Shown: positions 14,870-21,518 of the stretch, in pieces
How positions within the stretch are numbered: position 1 is the stretch's first letter
Layout of the letters: every line of letters starts with the position of its first letter
From: an uncultured cyanobacterium
GTDB taxonomy: Bacteria > Cyanobacteriota > Cyanobacteriia > Cyanobacteriales > Microcystaceae
Assembly (NCBI GenBank): GCA_903869185.1
Contig: CAIPYC010000102.1
Location: forward strand, 1-33,158
Reading direction: 5' to 3'
DNA length: 33,158 nucleotides
Translations under genes and position numbers: made by a program
The notes under the pieces: generated by a model
Seen by the model: the letters and a program-made list of their open reading frames with translations, nothing else
Database searches by the model: none
What the model was told of the DNA's origin: nothing

Positions 14870-15478
14870 TTAAGCCATCACTCTCTTCAAATTGAGAGAG
14901 AAACCGGGCAGGACATCTTGCCCTGAAAGTTCAGTAGGATTTTCTAACAGTTCTACTGCTTGCCCTTTTCTATAAATTTCCACTTGGTTATCTTGAGGAT
15001 TGATCAACCAACCCAATAGAGAACCGTTATCAATATATTCACGCATCTTCTCTCTGAGAGTCTCTAGGCTATCTGAAGGAGAACGCAACTCCACTACAAA
15101 TTCTGGCGTAACCTGAGCAAAACCTTTTTTTTGTAAAGCTGTTAGAGAAGTCCAAAGTTTGCGAGAAACCCAAGAAGCATCGGGAGAGCGGATAGCTCCA
15201 TTAGGCAAGGTGAATGCAGTGGAAGAATCAAAAGCTTCACCTAATTCTTCATTTTCTTCATACCAGCGATCCAATTGACCTGTAATACTACGATTACGCC
15301 GCCCCGATTCGCTCCCTGTAGGTGGATTTACAATTAACTCTCCAGTTGAAGTTCTCTCTAGTCGAATATCTCTATTGACAATAGCCAATTGTTCAAATTG
15401 CTCCGGAGTCACTTGTAACTTGAGTGTATTGAGTACTTCAAGAGAATGTATATCTAGTTTGGTTATTGATTGTACCAT
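14870..15478 (-). CDS. Uma2-family (DUF820) endonuclease-like protein, copy 2
   Basis: A 202-residue paralogue of the gene at 1000-1608, the same length and about four-fifths identical by eye. Residues 55-105 here keep the common family wording (FDSSTAFTLPNGAIRSPDASWVSRKLW), including the RSPDASW acidic motif that copy 1 has lost in part. The later EFVVELRSPSDS and WLINPQDNQVEIYR are shared. The frame stays open to 15652, but the ATG at 15478 aligns with the start of copy 1. Similarity with copy 1 extends about 20 bp upstream of it (AAGCACC-AAATAATATGGTACA). Biological role unknown; by fold, a PD-(D/E)xK nuclease. It is convergent with the VapC fragment. Confidence 0.86.
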   Translation of the reverse strand: MVQSITKLDIHSLEVLNTLKLQVTPEQFEQLAIVNRDIRLERTSTGELIVNPPTGSESGRRNRSITGQLDRWYEENEELGEAFDSSTAFTLPNGAIRSPDASWVSRKLWTSLTALQKKGFAQVTPEFVVELRSPSDSLETLREKMREYIDNGSLLGWLINPQDNQVEIYRKGQAVELLENPTELSGQDVLPGFSLNLKRVMA

Positions 15479-15545
15479 ATTATTTAGGTGCTTCAGGCTA
15501 GCACTACTGCCTAGATTAACTCTATGGTATCTCAATTCGATTTTA

Positions 15546-16898
15546 TTAAAGGTATAAGCTGAGCCGAAAGCCAGCATGTTGATAAAAACCAGGACGAAAC
15601 CAATTGCGATAATAGCCCCTTGCTTGATTGCCAGCAGTTGCCCAAGAACCACCCAACATCATTTTGTGATCACTATTGAAAAAAGGTTCAGAGTAGTCCA
15701 GATAGAGAAAATGTGGATCAAAACCGGCAAAAGGATTAAAATCATCGCTAAGCCATTGCCAAAGATTGCCACGAAGATCACAAATTTTAGAATTCTGTTC
15801 TAGCATACCTACAGGACAAGGTGAGCCAAATTTCAAATTCAGATTATATCTGCTCAAATCATCCCGGTTAGGATCATAGCTATCATTTTTATTGGTTCCA
15901 TAGGTAACAAGATTCCACTGGGATTCACTCATCAGAGCAGCCTTTTTATCTTGAGCCCGGCAATAGGCCATAGCCTCAAAATGATTAACTTCTACAGGCC
16001 AATCCAAAGGTAATGGCAAAATATCAAAGATAGCTCTATATTTATATTCCCCGTATTCATCAACTAGCCAAAATTTGGGATGTTTTGCCTGATAGTAATT
16101 TTTCCATTGCCAGCCGGCTGCATCCCAATATTCCCGGCATTGATAACCTCCATTATCTACAAAGATTTTGAATTCTCTATTGCTAATAGGGTATTTATTG
16201 GTTAAAAAAGGAGCAACTTGAACTTGGCGATAACCATACTCATTATCCCAGCCATAAAATGGAGAATCTCTTCTCTTGCCAAATTCTACCAGTCCTCCAG
16301 AAATCTCAACCATTTCATTGGGAAGAAATCGTTCATTTTCGTAGGGAGCATATTGCCAAGTGGAGGAACAATGAAGATTTTCTACAGAGATTTGTCTTAT
16401 GAGCATTGAAGAAGTTTCAAAATGAGTCAATTGGTGTTCCATTGACATCAGCAACGCCCAAAGATGTTGATCAGAAAAAATTCCTATATTATTAATAATA
16501 TCAATAACAGATTGATATACTTGTTCGCGGTATCGCCATATCTTATCTACACAAGGCCATTCTAGATTAGTATTGGCCTTGGTCAATTCACCGGGAGTAG
16601 CCGGATCTACTCCAAATCCAAAGAGCATTTCATAGGACTGATTGATTCCCTTATCCAGTAGGCCAACCAGCATCAACTTATTGACATAGAAAGCAGCGCA
16701 ATGACCTAAATAAAAAATTAAAGGATTGCGCAGATTATCGGGACTAGAATAGAATATATGCTCATGAATTACGCTCTTAAGTAGCAGATCTTCTAAATAC
16801 CAGGCTTTTACAAAGTAATCAAAAAGATCTTCTTTTCTACAATGATCCAGACGAATTGCCGGAAAAATCTTTATATTATTCATATCGCTAATAGTCAT
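15546..16898 (-). CDS. OvoA-like non-heme iron sulfoxide synthase (ergothioneine-type)
   Basis: A 450-residue protein with an N-terminal DinB-like iron-binding domain and a C-terminal formylglycine-generating-enzyme-like domain. The iron motif HX3HXE is HQLTHFE in SMEHQLTHFETSSMLIR. The second domain has GGLVEFGKRRDSPFYGWDNEYG, MSESQWNLVTYG and GGSWATAGNQARGYYRNWFRPGFYQHAGFRL. The wording (RLDHCRKEDLFDYF, NLRNPLIFYLGHCAAFYVNKL, GWDNEYGYRQVQV) is that of OvoA, the 5-histidylcysteine sulfoxide synthase, rather than classical EgtB. OvoA's usual C-terminal methyltransferase is absent. With egtD immediately upstream (5 bp), the likely reaction is oxygen-dependent coupling of hercynine to cysteine or gamma-glutamylcysteine. 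The start could also be 16883, or 16934 inside egtD. Confidence 0.82.
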   Translation of the reverse strand: MTISDMNNIKIFPAIRLDHCRKEDLFDYFVKAWYLEDLLLKSVIHEHIFYSSPDNLRNPLIFYLGHCAAFYVNKLMLVGLLDKGINQSYEMLFGFGVDPATPGELTKANTNLEWPCVDKIWRYREQVYQSVIDIINNIGIFSDQHLWALLMSMEHQLTHFETSSMLIRQISVENLHCSSTWQYAPYENERFLPNEMVEISGGLVEFGKRRDSPFYGWDNEYGYRQVQVAPFLTNKYPISNREFKIFVDNGGYQCREYWDAAGWQWKNYYQAKHPKFWLVDEYGEYKYRAIFDILPLPLDWPVEVNHFEAMAYCRAQDKKAALMSESQWNLVTYGTNKNDSYDPNRDDLSRYNLNLKFGSPCPVGMLEQNSKICDLRGNLWQWLSDDFNPFAGFDPHFLYLDYSEPFFNSDHKMMLGGSWATAGNQARGYYRNWFRPGFYQHAGFRLSLYL

Positions 16899-16903
16899 CA
16901 ATA

Positions 16904-17875
16904 TCAGCGCTGAGCCAAAATTAACGCAAACCATTGCTGAGGATCACTCCAGGTTCGCAAGGGTTTAATCTGGTGTTTTTGTAGCTTATTTTGCATATCT
17001 AATAGATCATATTTACGAGAAATTTCAGTAAGTATTCTTTCGTTTTTTTGCAAATCAACTTCAAAATCGAGTCCCGCCAGACAAATATGCTGATCTTGGG
17101 TAGAGCAGAGATACATTTCAATTTGATGTTGAGCTTGATTGTATATAGCCTGATGAGTAAACAGAGAAAGATTAAAGTTTGCCCGAAAACGTTGATTTAT
17201 ATGAGAGAGCATATTTAGATTAAAAGCTTCTGTCACTCTTTGCTTGTCATTGTAGGCTGCCTCTAAAATCTCTAAAGATTTATGGAGATCTACGCCCAAG
17301 AGAAAATAATCTCCAGGATTTAAAGTATTTGATATTTGCTCTAAAAACAAATCAGATTGATGCTCATCAAAGTTTCCTAAAGAGCTACCGAGAAAGAAGA
17401 TCAATCTTCTCGTTTGTTTATGGGATTTGAGGAAATTCAATGCCTGTTCATAGGATCCCGCCAGACCTTGAATAAAAAAACCAGGATATTGGAGTTCAAG
17501 TTTAGCTACACTACTACTGAGTATGCCACTACTGACATCAACAGGCAAATATCTGCAATATTGTGATTTTTTTTGATAAGAATCAAGCAAGATGCGACTC
17601 TTGGTTGAACTGCCACTTCCTAACTCTACCAATTCACTAATTCCGGTAATCTGCGCAATTTCATCGGCACATCCATTTAGAATTTCAGTTTCAACCCTGG
17701 TAGGATAGTATTCCTGAAGCTGACATATCTGCTCAAATAGCTGCGAACCACGATCATCATAAAAGTATTTGGCTGGAAGTGTTTTAGGTACTTTACCTAA
17801 ACCCTCAACGATATCTTGGCCATCATTGGTTTGGGCAAAATGACTATCTAAAATTAGAACTGATTCGGCAATCAT
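16904..17875 (-). CDS. egtD: Histidine N-alpha-methyltransferase EgtD
   Basis: A 323-residue SAM-dependent methyltransferase of the EgtD family: LPAKYFYDDRGSQLFEQICQLQEYYPTRVETEIL near the N-terminus, the SAM site VELGSGSSTKSRILL, FFLGSSLGNF, LLGVDLHKS, and the substrate-proximal EISRKY near the C-terminus. It trimethylates histidine to hercynine, the first step of ergothioneine synthesis. The normal length and all motifs indicate an active enzyme. It is first of a two-gene unit with the sulfoxide synthase. The C-S lyase for the last step is not in the window, and in cyanobacteria it is often unlinked. The divergent 130 bp to the DUF4337 gene should hold the promoter. Confidence 0.93.
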   Translation of the reverse strand: MIAESVLILDSHFAQTNDGQDIVEGLGKVPKTLPAKYFYDDRGSQLFEQICQLQEYYPTRVETEILNGCADEIAQITGISELVELGSGSSTKSRILLDSYQKKSQYCRYLPVDVSSGILSSSVAKLELQYPGFFIQGLAGSYEQALNFLKSHKQTRRLIFFLGSSLGNFDEHQSDLFLEQISNTLNPGDYFLLGVDLHKSLEILEAAYNDKQRVTEAFNLNMLSHINQRFRANFNLSLFTHQAIYNQAQHQIEMYLCSTQDQHICLAGLDFEVDLQKNERILTEISRKYDLLDMQNKLQKHQIKPLRTWSDPQQWFALILAQR

Positions 17876-18681: not shown

Positions 18682-19878
18682 ATGAACAGAAGAACTGCAA
18701 TTTGGTTATTTTCTCTCTCTCTTTTTTCATCCGTTTTTTCTTCGAGAGCTATCTCTACTAAAGTTGAAAATACACAAGCCCAATTTGCCCTTAAGCTTTT
18801 TAGCACAATCATTAAAGATGGATCCAACAACAATGTAATAATATCGCCTACCAGTATCTTTTTGGCACTTTCACTGCTTTACAATGGCGCCCAGGGAACC
18901 ACTAAAGAGCAAATGAGGCAACTACTGCTAGAGAACCAAAACCTGGATTTAGCCAACTTTAATCAAGATAATCTGCAACTTCAAAAGATCCTCAGTAAAG
19001 TTCGTGATAATAATATTCTCTCAATTGCCAATTCACTCTGGGTAAAATATGGTGTCAATCTCAAAACAGATTATGTTGATTCTCTTAGATATTCTTACCA
19101 GGCGCAGATAACTAATCTAGATTTTAATAATCCTCAAAGCCCTGTTGCTATCAATGAATGGGTCAGAAGAAAAACCAACGACAAAATCACTAAAATTATT
19201 GACAGGATCTCCGCTGATCAAGTGATGCTCTTAATTAATGCTATATATTTCAAAGGAATATGGGCAAGTACTTTTGATAGTAACTTAACACAAAATGAGC
19301 CATTTTATCTCCTAAATGGTTCGACTAAAGAAGTTTCCATGATGTCTAAAGAGGCAGATTATTGGTACTTAGAAAATGAGCTTTTACAACTTGTAAGTTT
19401 GCCCTACCAGGATCAGAATTTATCTTTAGATATTTTCCTACCGAACAAGAATATTGATTTTAATTCTTTTTTAGATCAATTAAATATAAAAAACTGGCAA
19501 AACTGGATATCTCAAATGAGAAAGAGGAAAGGAACGGTCAAAATTCCTCGTTTCAAACTCGAATACGAAACTACACTCAATGGAGTTTTACAAAGACTAG
19601 GAATGATCTCAGCTTTTAAGTCCAACCAGGCTGACTTTTCTGCCATAACCAAAGCAAAAGTCTATGTCAGTGACGTACTGCATAAAACCTATCTCGAGGT
19701 CAATGAAGAGGGTAGCCAGGCCGCGGCAGTAACCACAATTGGCGTTAGAGCTACCGCTATGCCTGTTAACGAAGAACAACCATTCATCTTGAGAGCTGAT
19801 CGGCCTTTTGTCTGTATTTTGAGAGAAAAGCAATCCAACTCCTTAATCTTTATGGCCTCGATTGTTGAAACCAGTTAA
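18682..19878 (+). CDS. Secreted serpin-family protease inhibitor
   Basis: A 398-residue serpin. Residues 1 to about 23 are a signal peptide (RR near the start, then a hydrophobic run to SSRA), so the protein acts in the periplasm or outside. Serpin landmarks are [59 protein letters not shown] and the C-terminal [19 protein letters not shown]. The hinge [11 protein letters not shown] is of the inhibitory type, with small residues at P12-P10. Counting 17 residues from the hinge Glu places the scissile bond near RAT-AM, pointing to a protease that likes small or basic P1 residues. Its stop overlaps the convergent ndhD stop by 4 bases. Bacterial serpins are patchily distributed, so horizontal origin is possible. 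Confidence 0.92.
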
Positions 19879-21518
19879 AAATCTATTCTGGATTGAACCG
19901 GTAAAGCAGAATAGTGATGGTCATGATAGGATTGGTTCATTTGTGCATTAATTGCTACTGTTTTAGTATCATAAAGTTGGGTTGCCAATTTAGGATATAC
20001 CCCTATCAGTACGATCATGGCCAGGAAAACCAAGGAAATAAATATCTCCCGAGTATTGGCATCACTGAATTTGGACTCCTCGGGCAATAAGCAGTCAGTA
20101 CCAAAACATGCTGCCTGTTCATTTCCCAGATTTTTTAGATCTCCATCGTCTAGATCACAAGAAGCATTGATGTCACAAATCATCTCGGAGCCGTTTCCAT
20201 AGAATACCTCTCTGAGCATTGATAACAGATATATAGGCGTGAGAATCAACCCTATAGAAGAAAGTAGAATTGTGACAGTGCGAAAAGTTGAACTGTAGAT
20301 TTCTGACCTTGCCATACCCAGAAAAACAGAAATCTCCCCGACAAATCCACTCATTCCCGGCATGGCCAGAGAGGCTAAGGCGCCCATGGTAAATAGGGCA
20401 AAGACTTTGGGCATAGCTTGACCAATCCCACCCATTTTCTTCATGATCATTGTGTGAGTGCGATCATATGTGACTCCTGCCAAGAAAAACAGGACTGAAG
20501 CTATAAGCCCATGCGAAATCATTTGGAGCATGGCCCCATTGACTCCCAAGTCGCTAAAAGAGGCAAGTCCTAAAAGCACAAAGCCCATATGGGAAATCGA
20601 AGAAAACGCCAGACGACGTTTCATATTAGTCTGGGCAAAGGAGTTAAGCGCGCCATAAACTACATTGACTACGCCAAGAATAGCTATCACTGGAGCGAAA
20701 TACACATGGGCATCAGGTAACAGTTCCATATTCAAACGGATGAGACCATAACCACCCATTTTAAGTAGCACGCCCGCTAACACCATAGATACTGGAGAAG
20801 ATGCTTCACCATGGGCATCGGGTAGCCATGTATGTAGGGGGAATATAGCCAATTTCACGCCAAAAGCTATTAATAAACCTGCATATAGGAACAATTCCAA
20901 CGCCAGCGGAAATTCTTTGAGGTGAAGCTCGGCAATATCAAAAGTAATATTATTACCAGAAAGAGCCATCGCCAAAGCTGCTATCAAAATAAAAATTGAA
21001 GCAACTGCAGTATATAGTAGGAATTTAGTTGCAGCATAGCCCCGCTTTTGTCCGCCCCATATGGAAATCAGTATGTAGACAGGAACCAGTTCGACTTCCC
21101 ACATAATGAAGAACAGCAAAAGATCCTGAGCCACAAAAACTCCAATCTGAGCCGAGTAGAGCAAAAGCATCATGGCGTAGAAAAGACGAGGTCTGCGATC
21201 TACTTGCCAGGCTGAAAACATTGAAAGTGTAGTGACTAACCCAGCTAGAAGCAAAAGAGGTACTGAGACTCCATCAATAGAAACAGCCCAGCTCAACCCT
21301 AATTGGGGTAGCCATGTGAATTTTTCGACGAGCTGGAAATTAGGATTATTGGAATCATAGTATCTCCAGAATACGTAACACATAGTCATGAATTCTGTGA
21401 TACCTACTCCAAGAGCGTACCACCTCACTACATTATTTTTTGCTGGTAGTAAGGGTATCAAGAAAGCAGCAAACAGGGGAAAAAGAACAAGCGCACTTAG
21501 CCAGGGAAAGCCATCCAT
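19875..21518 (-). CDS. ndhD: NDH-1 subunit NdhD (D1/D2 type)
   Basis: A 547-residue NuoM/NdhD protein with about 14 membrane helices. Proton-channel segments are [76 protein letters not shown] and [18 protein letters not shown]. The [12 protein letters not shown] wording and stand-alone location place it with NdhD1/NdhD2 of the respiratory and cyclic NDH-1L complex, not with CO2-uptake D3/D4. Between the penultimate and last helices (about residues 440-485) it has an acidic insertion with four cysteines (ICDINASC and ACFGTDC). I recall a similar insert in other cyanobacterial NdhD proteins, so it is probably a subtype mark. Confidence 0.92.

Follow-up and report, generated by a model that had tools for sequence, protein, structure and literature searches.

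Among described ergothioneine systems of cyanobacteria, the closest to the one reported here are those with a sulfoxide synthase of EgtB type IV (EgtB-IV). Passages of two reviews (PMC9516567, PMC11993508) state that some cyanobacteria took over their sulfoxide synthase from another pathway, the former citing Liao and Seebeck 2017 for this cyanobacterial recruitment. The Microcystis aeruginosa protein MaeEgtB is listed as a type IV EgtB in Table 1 of PMC12071650. According to PDB titles, the Crocosphaera subtropica EgtB-IV has been crystallised with hercynine (8vih) and with cysteine (8vii), and further EgtB-IV entries come from C. subtropica (8vik, 8vil) and from a Geminocystis isolate (8vig). 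Here we analyse a gene pair in a stretch of 33,158 nucleotides (the window; contig CAIPYC010000102.1, assembly GCA_903869185.1) from an uncultured cyanobacterium of the Microcystaceae. We consider it very probable that this pair, egtD with an egtB of type IV, is an ergothioneine operon, and it is a well-supported conclusion that it represents an ordinary further example of the described EgtB type IV route, not a new system. The genes and the predicted start are as follows.

16904..17875, minus strand: egtD, L-histidine N-alpha-methyltransferase, 323 aa (TIGR03438, PF10017 and PDB matches)
15546..16934, minus strand: egtB type IV, open reading frame (ORF) of an OvoA-like sulfoxide synthase, 462 aa (TIGR04344, best PDB matches 8vih/8vig, trees)
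16881..16883, minus strand: probable egtB start codon, Met18 of the ORF (sequence and aligned start of a Microcystis-type relative)

The first-pass annotation of this DNA had proposed an OvoA-like synthase adjoining egtD, and both ORFs are indeed found at these positions, each above the cut-off of its NCBIfam model. The synthase scores 504.9 bits against ovoA_Nterm (TIGR04344; cut-off 400). It fails egtB (TIGR03440; 184 bits, cut-off 360, a threshold that many cyanobacterial classical EgtB proteins miss too) and SenA (174.5 bits, cut-off 420). The methyltransferase passes egtD (TIGR03438) with 383.6 bits against a cut-off of 290.9 and reaches 374.5 bits with PF10017; all six distinct PDB sequences that it matches at E ≤ 0.001 are EgtD or histidine N-alpha-methyltransferases (best 1.8e-67). 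In the synthase Pfam recognizes nothing but the FGE-like domain at the C terminus (residues 206-458), and the TIGR04344 match spans residues 30-458, the N-terminal half included. The ORF stops four residues past the FGE-like match, and the methyltransferase domain of ovothiol enzymes is absent from it, as had been claimed. The genome as a whole has two FGE-family proteins only, the window synthase and one on contig C76, which is not an EgtB by score.

The true egtB start is probably Met18 (window 16883), because a Microcystis-type relative begins at the aligned residue. From this codon the protein has 445 aa and lies behind the egtD stop with a 20-base gap; from the longest ORF start the two genes overlap by 31 bases. 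The same neighbourhood recurs elsewhere: egtD was present in 41 of 55 other EgtB-IV loci, on the same strand and in either gene order, within fetched stretches that in 27 of the 55 cases reached only about 1.5 kb per side.

In the PDB the sequences closest to the synthase are 8vih (E 8.8e-157) and 8vig, both titled "Sulfoxide synthase EgtB-IV", followed by the OvoA entry 8khq and then by classical EgtB. An AlphaFold2 model built from 28 sequences (mean predicted local distance difference test score 79.1, predicted template modelling score 0.83) folds the N-terminal half as a helical bundle and matches EgtB-IV structures first, with template modelling scores of 0.84 and 0.85 by query length.

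Phylogenetic placement agrees with this. A single-sequence scan of genome contigs found no relative. From an alignment-based scan the best 80 named loci were used, and the nearest of these is Microcystis novacekii (58-59% identity); identity to the Microcystis-type proteins is 59-60%. In a tree of 97 proteins the window synthase is sister to three Microcystis-type proteins (Shimodaira-Hasegawa-like approximate likelihood ratio test, SH-aLRT, 99) inside the cyanobacterial EgtB-IV group (SH-aLRT 100) and apart from classical EgtB, and the 22 OvoA rows form a separate group (SH-aLRT 98). A tree of 53 EgtB-IV proteins again makes it sister to Microcystis (100/98). The EgtB-IV group, which also takes in the crystallised EgtB-IV proteins, received 96/94 and 100/100 in two later builds, from which long-branch, partial and near-duplicate rows were left out. 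The OvoA group closes without the window synthase at 99/99 (a build without Microcystis), and at 94/77 when the signature columns and L128 are left out; L128, a short OvoA-like protein lacking the methyltransferase part, belongs to the OvoA group of the 97-protein and 99/99 trees. The partial protein L096 was omitted from the trees. In all three trees that included classical EgtB the synthase lies outside the classical group. The tree proposed as a check on the first-pass annotation has thus been made, and it places the protein in the cyanobacterial OvoA-like clade beside Microcystis, not inside the classical EgtB clade.

Conservation of the presumed active site was counted in 88 other, non-identical EgtB-IV sequences, although some represent one gene retrieved twice from different starts; the set was restricted to proteins of 400-520 aa and omits L056 and identical rows. 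The positions are listed below.

16701..16703, minus strand: His78, which we take to be the first iron-site histidine, its role being assigned by alignment (His in 88/88 other EgtB-IV and 12/12 OvoA)
16416..16436, minus strand: HX3HXE motif HQLTHFE with His167, His171 and Glu173 (all three in 88/88 other EgtB-IV)
15702..15704, minus strand: Tyr411, equivalent of catalytic Tyr377 of Mycobacterium thermoresistibile EgtB (profile alignment to 4x8b)
15693..15695, minus strand: Tyr414, aligned with OvsA M401Y (alignments; variant taken from the 8ux5 title)
15600..15605, minus strand: Asn444-Trp445, putative hercynine-site pair by alignment with OvsA Q430N/A431F (alignment and conservation)

The motif HQLTHFE, noticed already in the first-pass annotation, is present in the translation, as are the strings that had been quoted as OvoA wording. 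One of these, GWDNEYG, is untypical of EgtB-IV: the Asn is shared by 7 of the 88 other cyanobacterial EgtB-IV proteins and by 12/12 OvoA. The catalytic role of Tyr377 is described in PMC10903977, and Tyr is found at the position of Tyr411 in 88/88 other EgtB-IV and 12/12 OvoA; the equivalence assumes that the 4x8b chain index runs one above the published number, an offset that we inferred. The PDB title of 8ux5 calls OvsA M401Y/Q430N/A431F "a hercynine-binding variant". In our own alignment, for which we took the numbering to be shifted by 20, Tyr414, Asn444 and Trp445 align with these three residues, and OvoA lacks the Asn-Trp pair, which points to hercynine, not histidine, as the substrate of the window synthase. 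Asn-Trp occupies positions 444-445 in 88/88 other EgtB-IV, and classical EgtB has Asn in 13/13 and Trp in 10/13. Long-frame OvoA has Tyr/Phe at the first and Ala/His at the second of these positions in 41/41, with no Asn and no Trp. Position 414 varies in EgtB-IV (Tyr 11, Asn 6, Gln 2; n=19) and is Phe in 24/24 OvoA. The Asn-Trp pattern suggests a simple residue test for the use of hercynine versus histidine.

In the proposed route EgtD would trimethylate histidine to hercynine. EgtB-IV, whose N-terminal half is helical and whose C-terminal half is FGE-like, would act next as a non-haem iron enzyme and, with O2, couple free cysteine to carbon 2 of the hercynine ring to give a sulfoxide, and a C-S lyase encoded elsewhere would release ergothioneine. 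The binding of hercynine and cysteine is suggested by the related structures. Family identity, clade, active-site residues and EgtD partner are read from the sequence; activity and product in this organism, co-transcription, the order of steps and the involvement of a lyase are inferred.

According to a passage of PMC11993508, EgtC removes glutamate in routes that use gamma-glutamylcysteine as donor. The window's genome (96.6% complete) contains no EgtC match and no classical EgtB over the cut-off. Free cysteine is the likely sulfur donor, because EgtC was not matched in the genome and because EgtB-IV is known in cysteine-bound form (8vii).

Among 386 cyanobacterial genomes TIGR04344 exceeds its cut-off in 59 (60 matches), which divide by frame length into 56 genomes with EgtB-IV and three (G053, G021, G026) with long OvoA only. 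One genome, G360, carries both long OvoA (contig C4, L004) and EgtB-IV with adjoining egtD (contig C69, L052). Classical EgtB was counted in 97 of the 386 genomes (238 bits or more), from rows picked by hand between 601.5 and 238.5 bits with the line set after the scores were seen; the intermediate proteins of G041 and G053 (269 and 265 bits) were excluded, and the uncounted lower rows of G247 (234 bits), G085, G241 and G089, none of them EgtB-IV genomes, may be partly matched classical EgtB. Genomes with both EgtB-IV and classical EgtB are very rare: one of the 386 (G048, about 530 contigs) has the two, versus about 14 expected. The hypergeometric value for this exclusion, 5e-7, is not a true probability, as related genomes are not independent. 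EgtC is over the cut-off in 65/386 genomes, namely in 6/56 of those with EgtB-IV, 54/60 of those with moderate-scoring classical EgtB and 1/37 of those with high-scoring classical EgtB. EgtD was not matched in six genomes of a 148-genome sample of the order, none of which belongs to the 56 EgtB-IV genomes; by hand count from the list the sample includes 21 EgtB-IV genomes. Three genomes of the same family (G147, G183, G268; 2.8-3.1 Mb) gave no match to either EgtB model, and the window's genome of 2.76 Mb keeps the pathway.

Several observations weigh against the assignment of the pair to a working ergothioneine operon. The synthase lies on a long branch (0.49 in the 97-protein tree, 0.58 in the 53-protein tree) and has the lowest TIGR04344 score of the 60 matches over cut-off. 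It departs at 17 of the positions conserved in at least 90% of the 88 other EgtB-IV sequences, and its motif reads HQLTH, the third place being Arg in 79/88 of them. With these departures, lowered or altered synthase activity is possible. The structural model is weak over residues 391-450 (block means 41-63), the region holding Asn444 and Trp445, and therefore lends the hercynine site no support by itself. Lack of EgtC is no peculiarity of EgtB-IV, since high-scoring classical EgtB also occurs mostly without it, and EgtE (TIGR04343) has no match over the cut-off in the genome (best 73.8 bits, cut-off 400). It could be supposed that in this lineage the pair is in decay or has taken on another role, with EgtB-IV slow, inactive or changed in its donor, and the long branch, the 17 departures, HQLTH and the three small genomes of the same family lacking both EgtB models would fit this. 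However, both frames are open, and the iron ligands, the catalytic tyrosine and the hercynine-site residues are all kept, so that we regard such decay as improbable.

Still less probable is a truncated OvoA with histidine as its substrate, serving to make ovothiol or 5-thiohistidine. The best-scoring family, TIGR04344, is described as 5-histidylcysteine sulfoxide synthase, and GWDNEYG carries the OvoA Asn; but OvoA forms a group of its own (SH-aLRT 98; 99/99; 94/77), Asn444-Trp445 occurs in 0/41 long-frame OvoA, and the window synthase has an EgtD neighbour and no C-terminal methyltransferase. That the protein is a classical EgtB merely resembling OvoA in looks has hardly any probability at all: the EgtD neighbour and the egtB score of 184 bits would suit it, yet that score is below the cut-off of 360, the protein falls outside the classical group in three trees, and the genome has no EgtC match. 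An ergothioneine operon with EgtB type IV is thus the reading that we prefer. The gene should be annotated as egtB type IV, neither plain egtB nor ovoA. The first-pass annotation had warned that a plain EgtB label would mislead; since EgtB type IV is the name in accepted use, "EgtB" is imprecise rather than wrong.

Which enzyme could complete the ergothioneine route? The EgtE model gave weak matches to three pyridoxal phosphate (PLP) proteins in the genome. Two of them were rejected, being cysteine desulfurases of the IscS/NifS type. The third (L076:701-1891, contig C14) has its match in C-DES, a C-S lyase for L-cysteine/L-cystine (1elq, E 6e-131), and is a reasonable candidate for the last-step lyase. 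A third operon gene was sought in 75 relative loci plus the window; the synthase was present in 76, EgtD in 52, and the next most frequent was a DUF427 protein, in 19. This protein of about 164 aa (for example L158:2274-2768, L048:3465-3959 and L100:5389-5883) is, by our own reading of coordinates, no more than about 250 bases away from egtB or egtD at 18 of 25 loci, some of these loci being the same genome fetched twice. It adjoins EgtB-IV and also the classical EgtB of Picosynechococcus PCC 7002. We rejected it as the lyase, having found no supporting evidence, and it is matched in 154/386 cyanobacterial genomes, one of them (G177) without any match to the egtB model. The window's genome has it only as a short protein of 93 aa on a different contig. 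In the literature searched we found no paper linking DUF427 with ergothioneine. Another protein of this genome (L074:1207-2379, contig C165; 390 aa) has a weak PF10017 match over residues 99-388 (50 bits), preceded by an N-terminal part that has no match, and scores 30.5 bits against the egtD model (cut-off 290.9).

The two genes of the pair seem to have different histories. In the EgtD trees the window protein is one of six members of a group (97/95) that also holds Brasilonema bromeliae, two metagenome-assembled genomes (MAGs) of Oscillatoriales type and two further genomes, G382 and G033, but not Microcystis. Forcing it together with Microcystis costs 26.6 log units (approximately unbiased (AU) test, p 0.0008), and forcing the window EgtB together with four of its five EgtD-group partners costs 122.7 (AU p 3e-6). 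Because the EgtD and EgtB trees give different nearest relatives, the pair appears to be of mixed origin, with one gene exchanged, more likely egtD. This is a moderate claim, because the branches are long (EgtD 0.78, EgtB 0.58) and the groups were named after the trees had been seen. NdhD (window 19875-21518), used as a rate control, is 73% identical to two Microcystis-type genomes and 73% and 75% identical to two genomes of family f5.

If EgtB-IV is a clade of its own, then we can ask: Was it recruited from the ovothiol pathway? The first-pass annotation had assigned the pair to a second-origin pathway with an OvoA-type enzyme. Its EgtB-IV clade and known type are borne out; recruitment is a different matter. 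In trees rooted on classical EgtB, a root position that was assumed, EgtB-IV is sister to OvoA and not nested in it (OvoA 99/99; 94/77 without signature columns), so that our data do not compel the published direction. With the signature columns omitted, the AU test only mildly rejects a position of EgtB-IV inside one or the other half of OvoA (p 0.032 and 0.028). Short non-cyanobacterial proteins shift between builds, standing with OvoA (93/82) or with EgtB-IV (89/81).

Asn, mostly with Trp, is common to classical EgtB, the intermediates L062, L063 and L165, and EgtB-IV, and OvoA lacks both. By parsimony this distribution fits an ancestral hercynine enzyme. We therefore raise the tentative possibility, which we rate below even chances, that the ancestor of EgtB-IV and OvoA already served ergothioneine, that OvoA is derived, and that EgtB-IV did not arise by recruitment out of the ovothiol pathway. 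OvoA would then have gained its methyltransferase domain and changed Asn-Trp to Tyr/Phe-Ala/His for histidine, and the "convergent second origin" of cyanobacterial ergothioneine would be a retained old enzyme that spread, replacing classical EgtB. Against this, a convergent regain of Asn-Trp in EgtB-IV is possible. The evolutionary direction between ergothioneine and ovothiol enzymes can be tested by ancestral reconstruction.

Some further loci touch on this history. The Asn-Trp proteins L062, L063 and L165 branch between classical EgtB and the EgtB-IV/OvoA group, and L063 has an EgtD-like gene next to it on the other strand. Short OvoA-like synthases from Bacteroidota, Gemmatimonadota and a gammaproteobacterial MAG (L118-L122) have Leu-Trp at the place of Asn-Trp and form their own clade; in their fetched stretches an EgtD-like piece occurs only at L119 (37%, other strand). 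Genome G195, of Tychonema type, has fragments of egtC and of classical egtB just upstream of an intact egtD (L197:3821-5669, contig C118); most of the classical egtB was not found, and EgtB-IV is on a different contig. These fragments are apparently the relic of a replaced pathway. Five genomes (G068, G125, G167, G376, G320) have EgtB-IV and EgtC over the cut-off and no counted classical EgtB, perhaps also a leftover of a replaced pathway.

Around the pair in the window, a serpin gene (PF00079; 18682-19878) lies about 0.8 kb from egtD on the opposite strand. A Uma2-family ORF (14870-15652) overlaps the 3′ end of egtB in its longest form, its true start being probably further in.

Compared with known systems, the window protein shares with EgtB type IV of Microcystis, C. 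subtropica and Geminocystis the two-part build, the clade, and the residues of the iron and hercynine sites, and Microcystis-type loci have the same egtD-egtB order. It differs from other EgtB type IV in its long branch, in HQLTH, and in an egtD of a lineage other than that of Microcystis. OvoA, the 5-histidylcysteine sulfoxide synthase of the ovothiol pathway, has the N-terminal synthase part in common with it; in contrast, OvoA carries a C-terminal methyltransferase and Tyr/Phe-Ala/His at 444-445 and belongs to a separate clade. Classical EgtB (TIGR03440; 4x8b) is like the window protein in the Asn of the hercynine site (13/13) and the aligned catalytic tyrosine, whereas it forms a separate clade, and its moderate-scoring cyanobacterial type is accompanied by EgtC in 54/60 genomes. 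The selenium relatives OvsA and SenA belong to the same superfamily but are remote, with 18-21% identity in the structural search.

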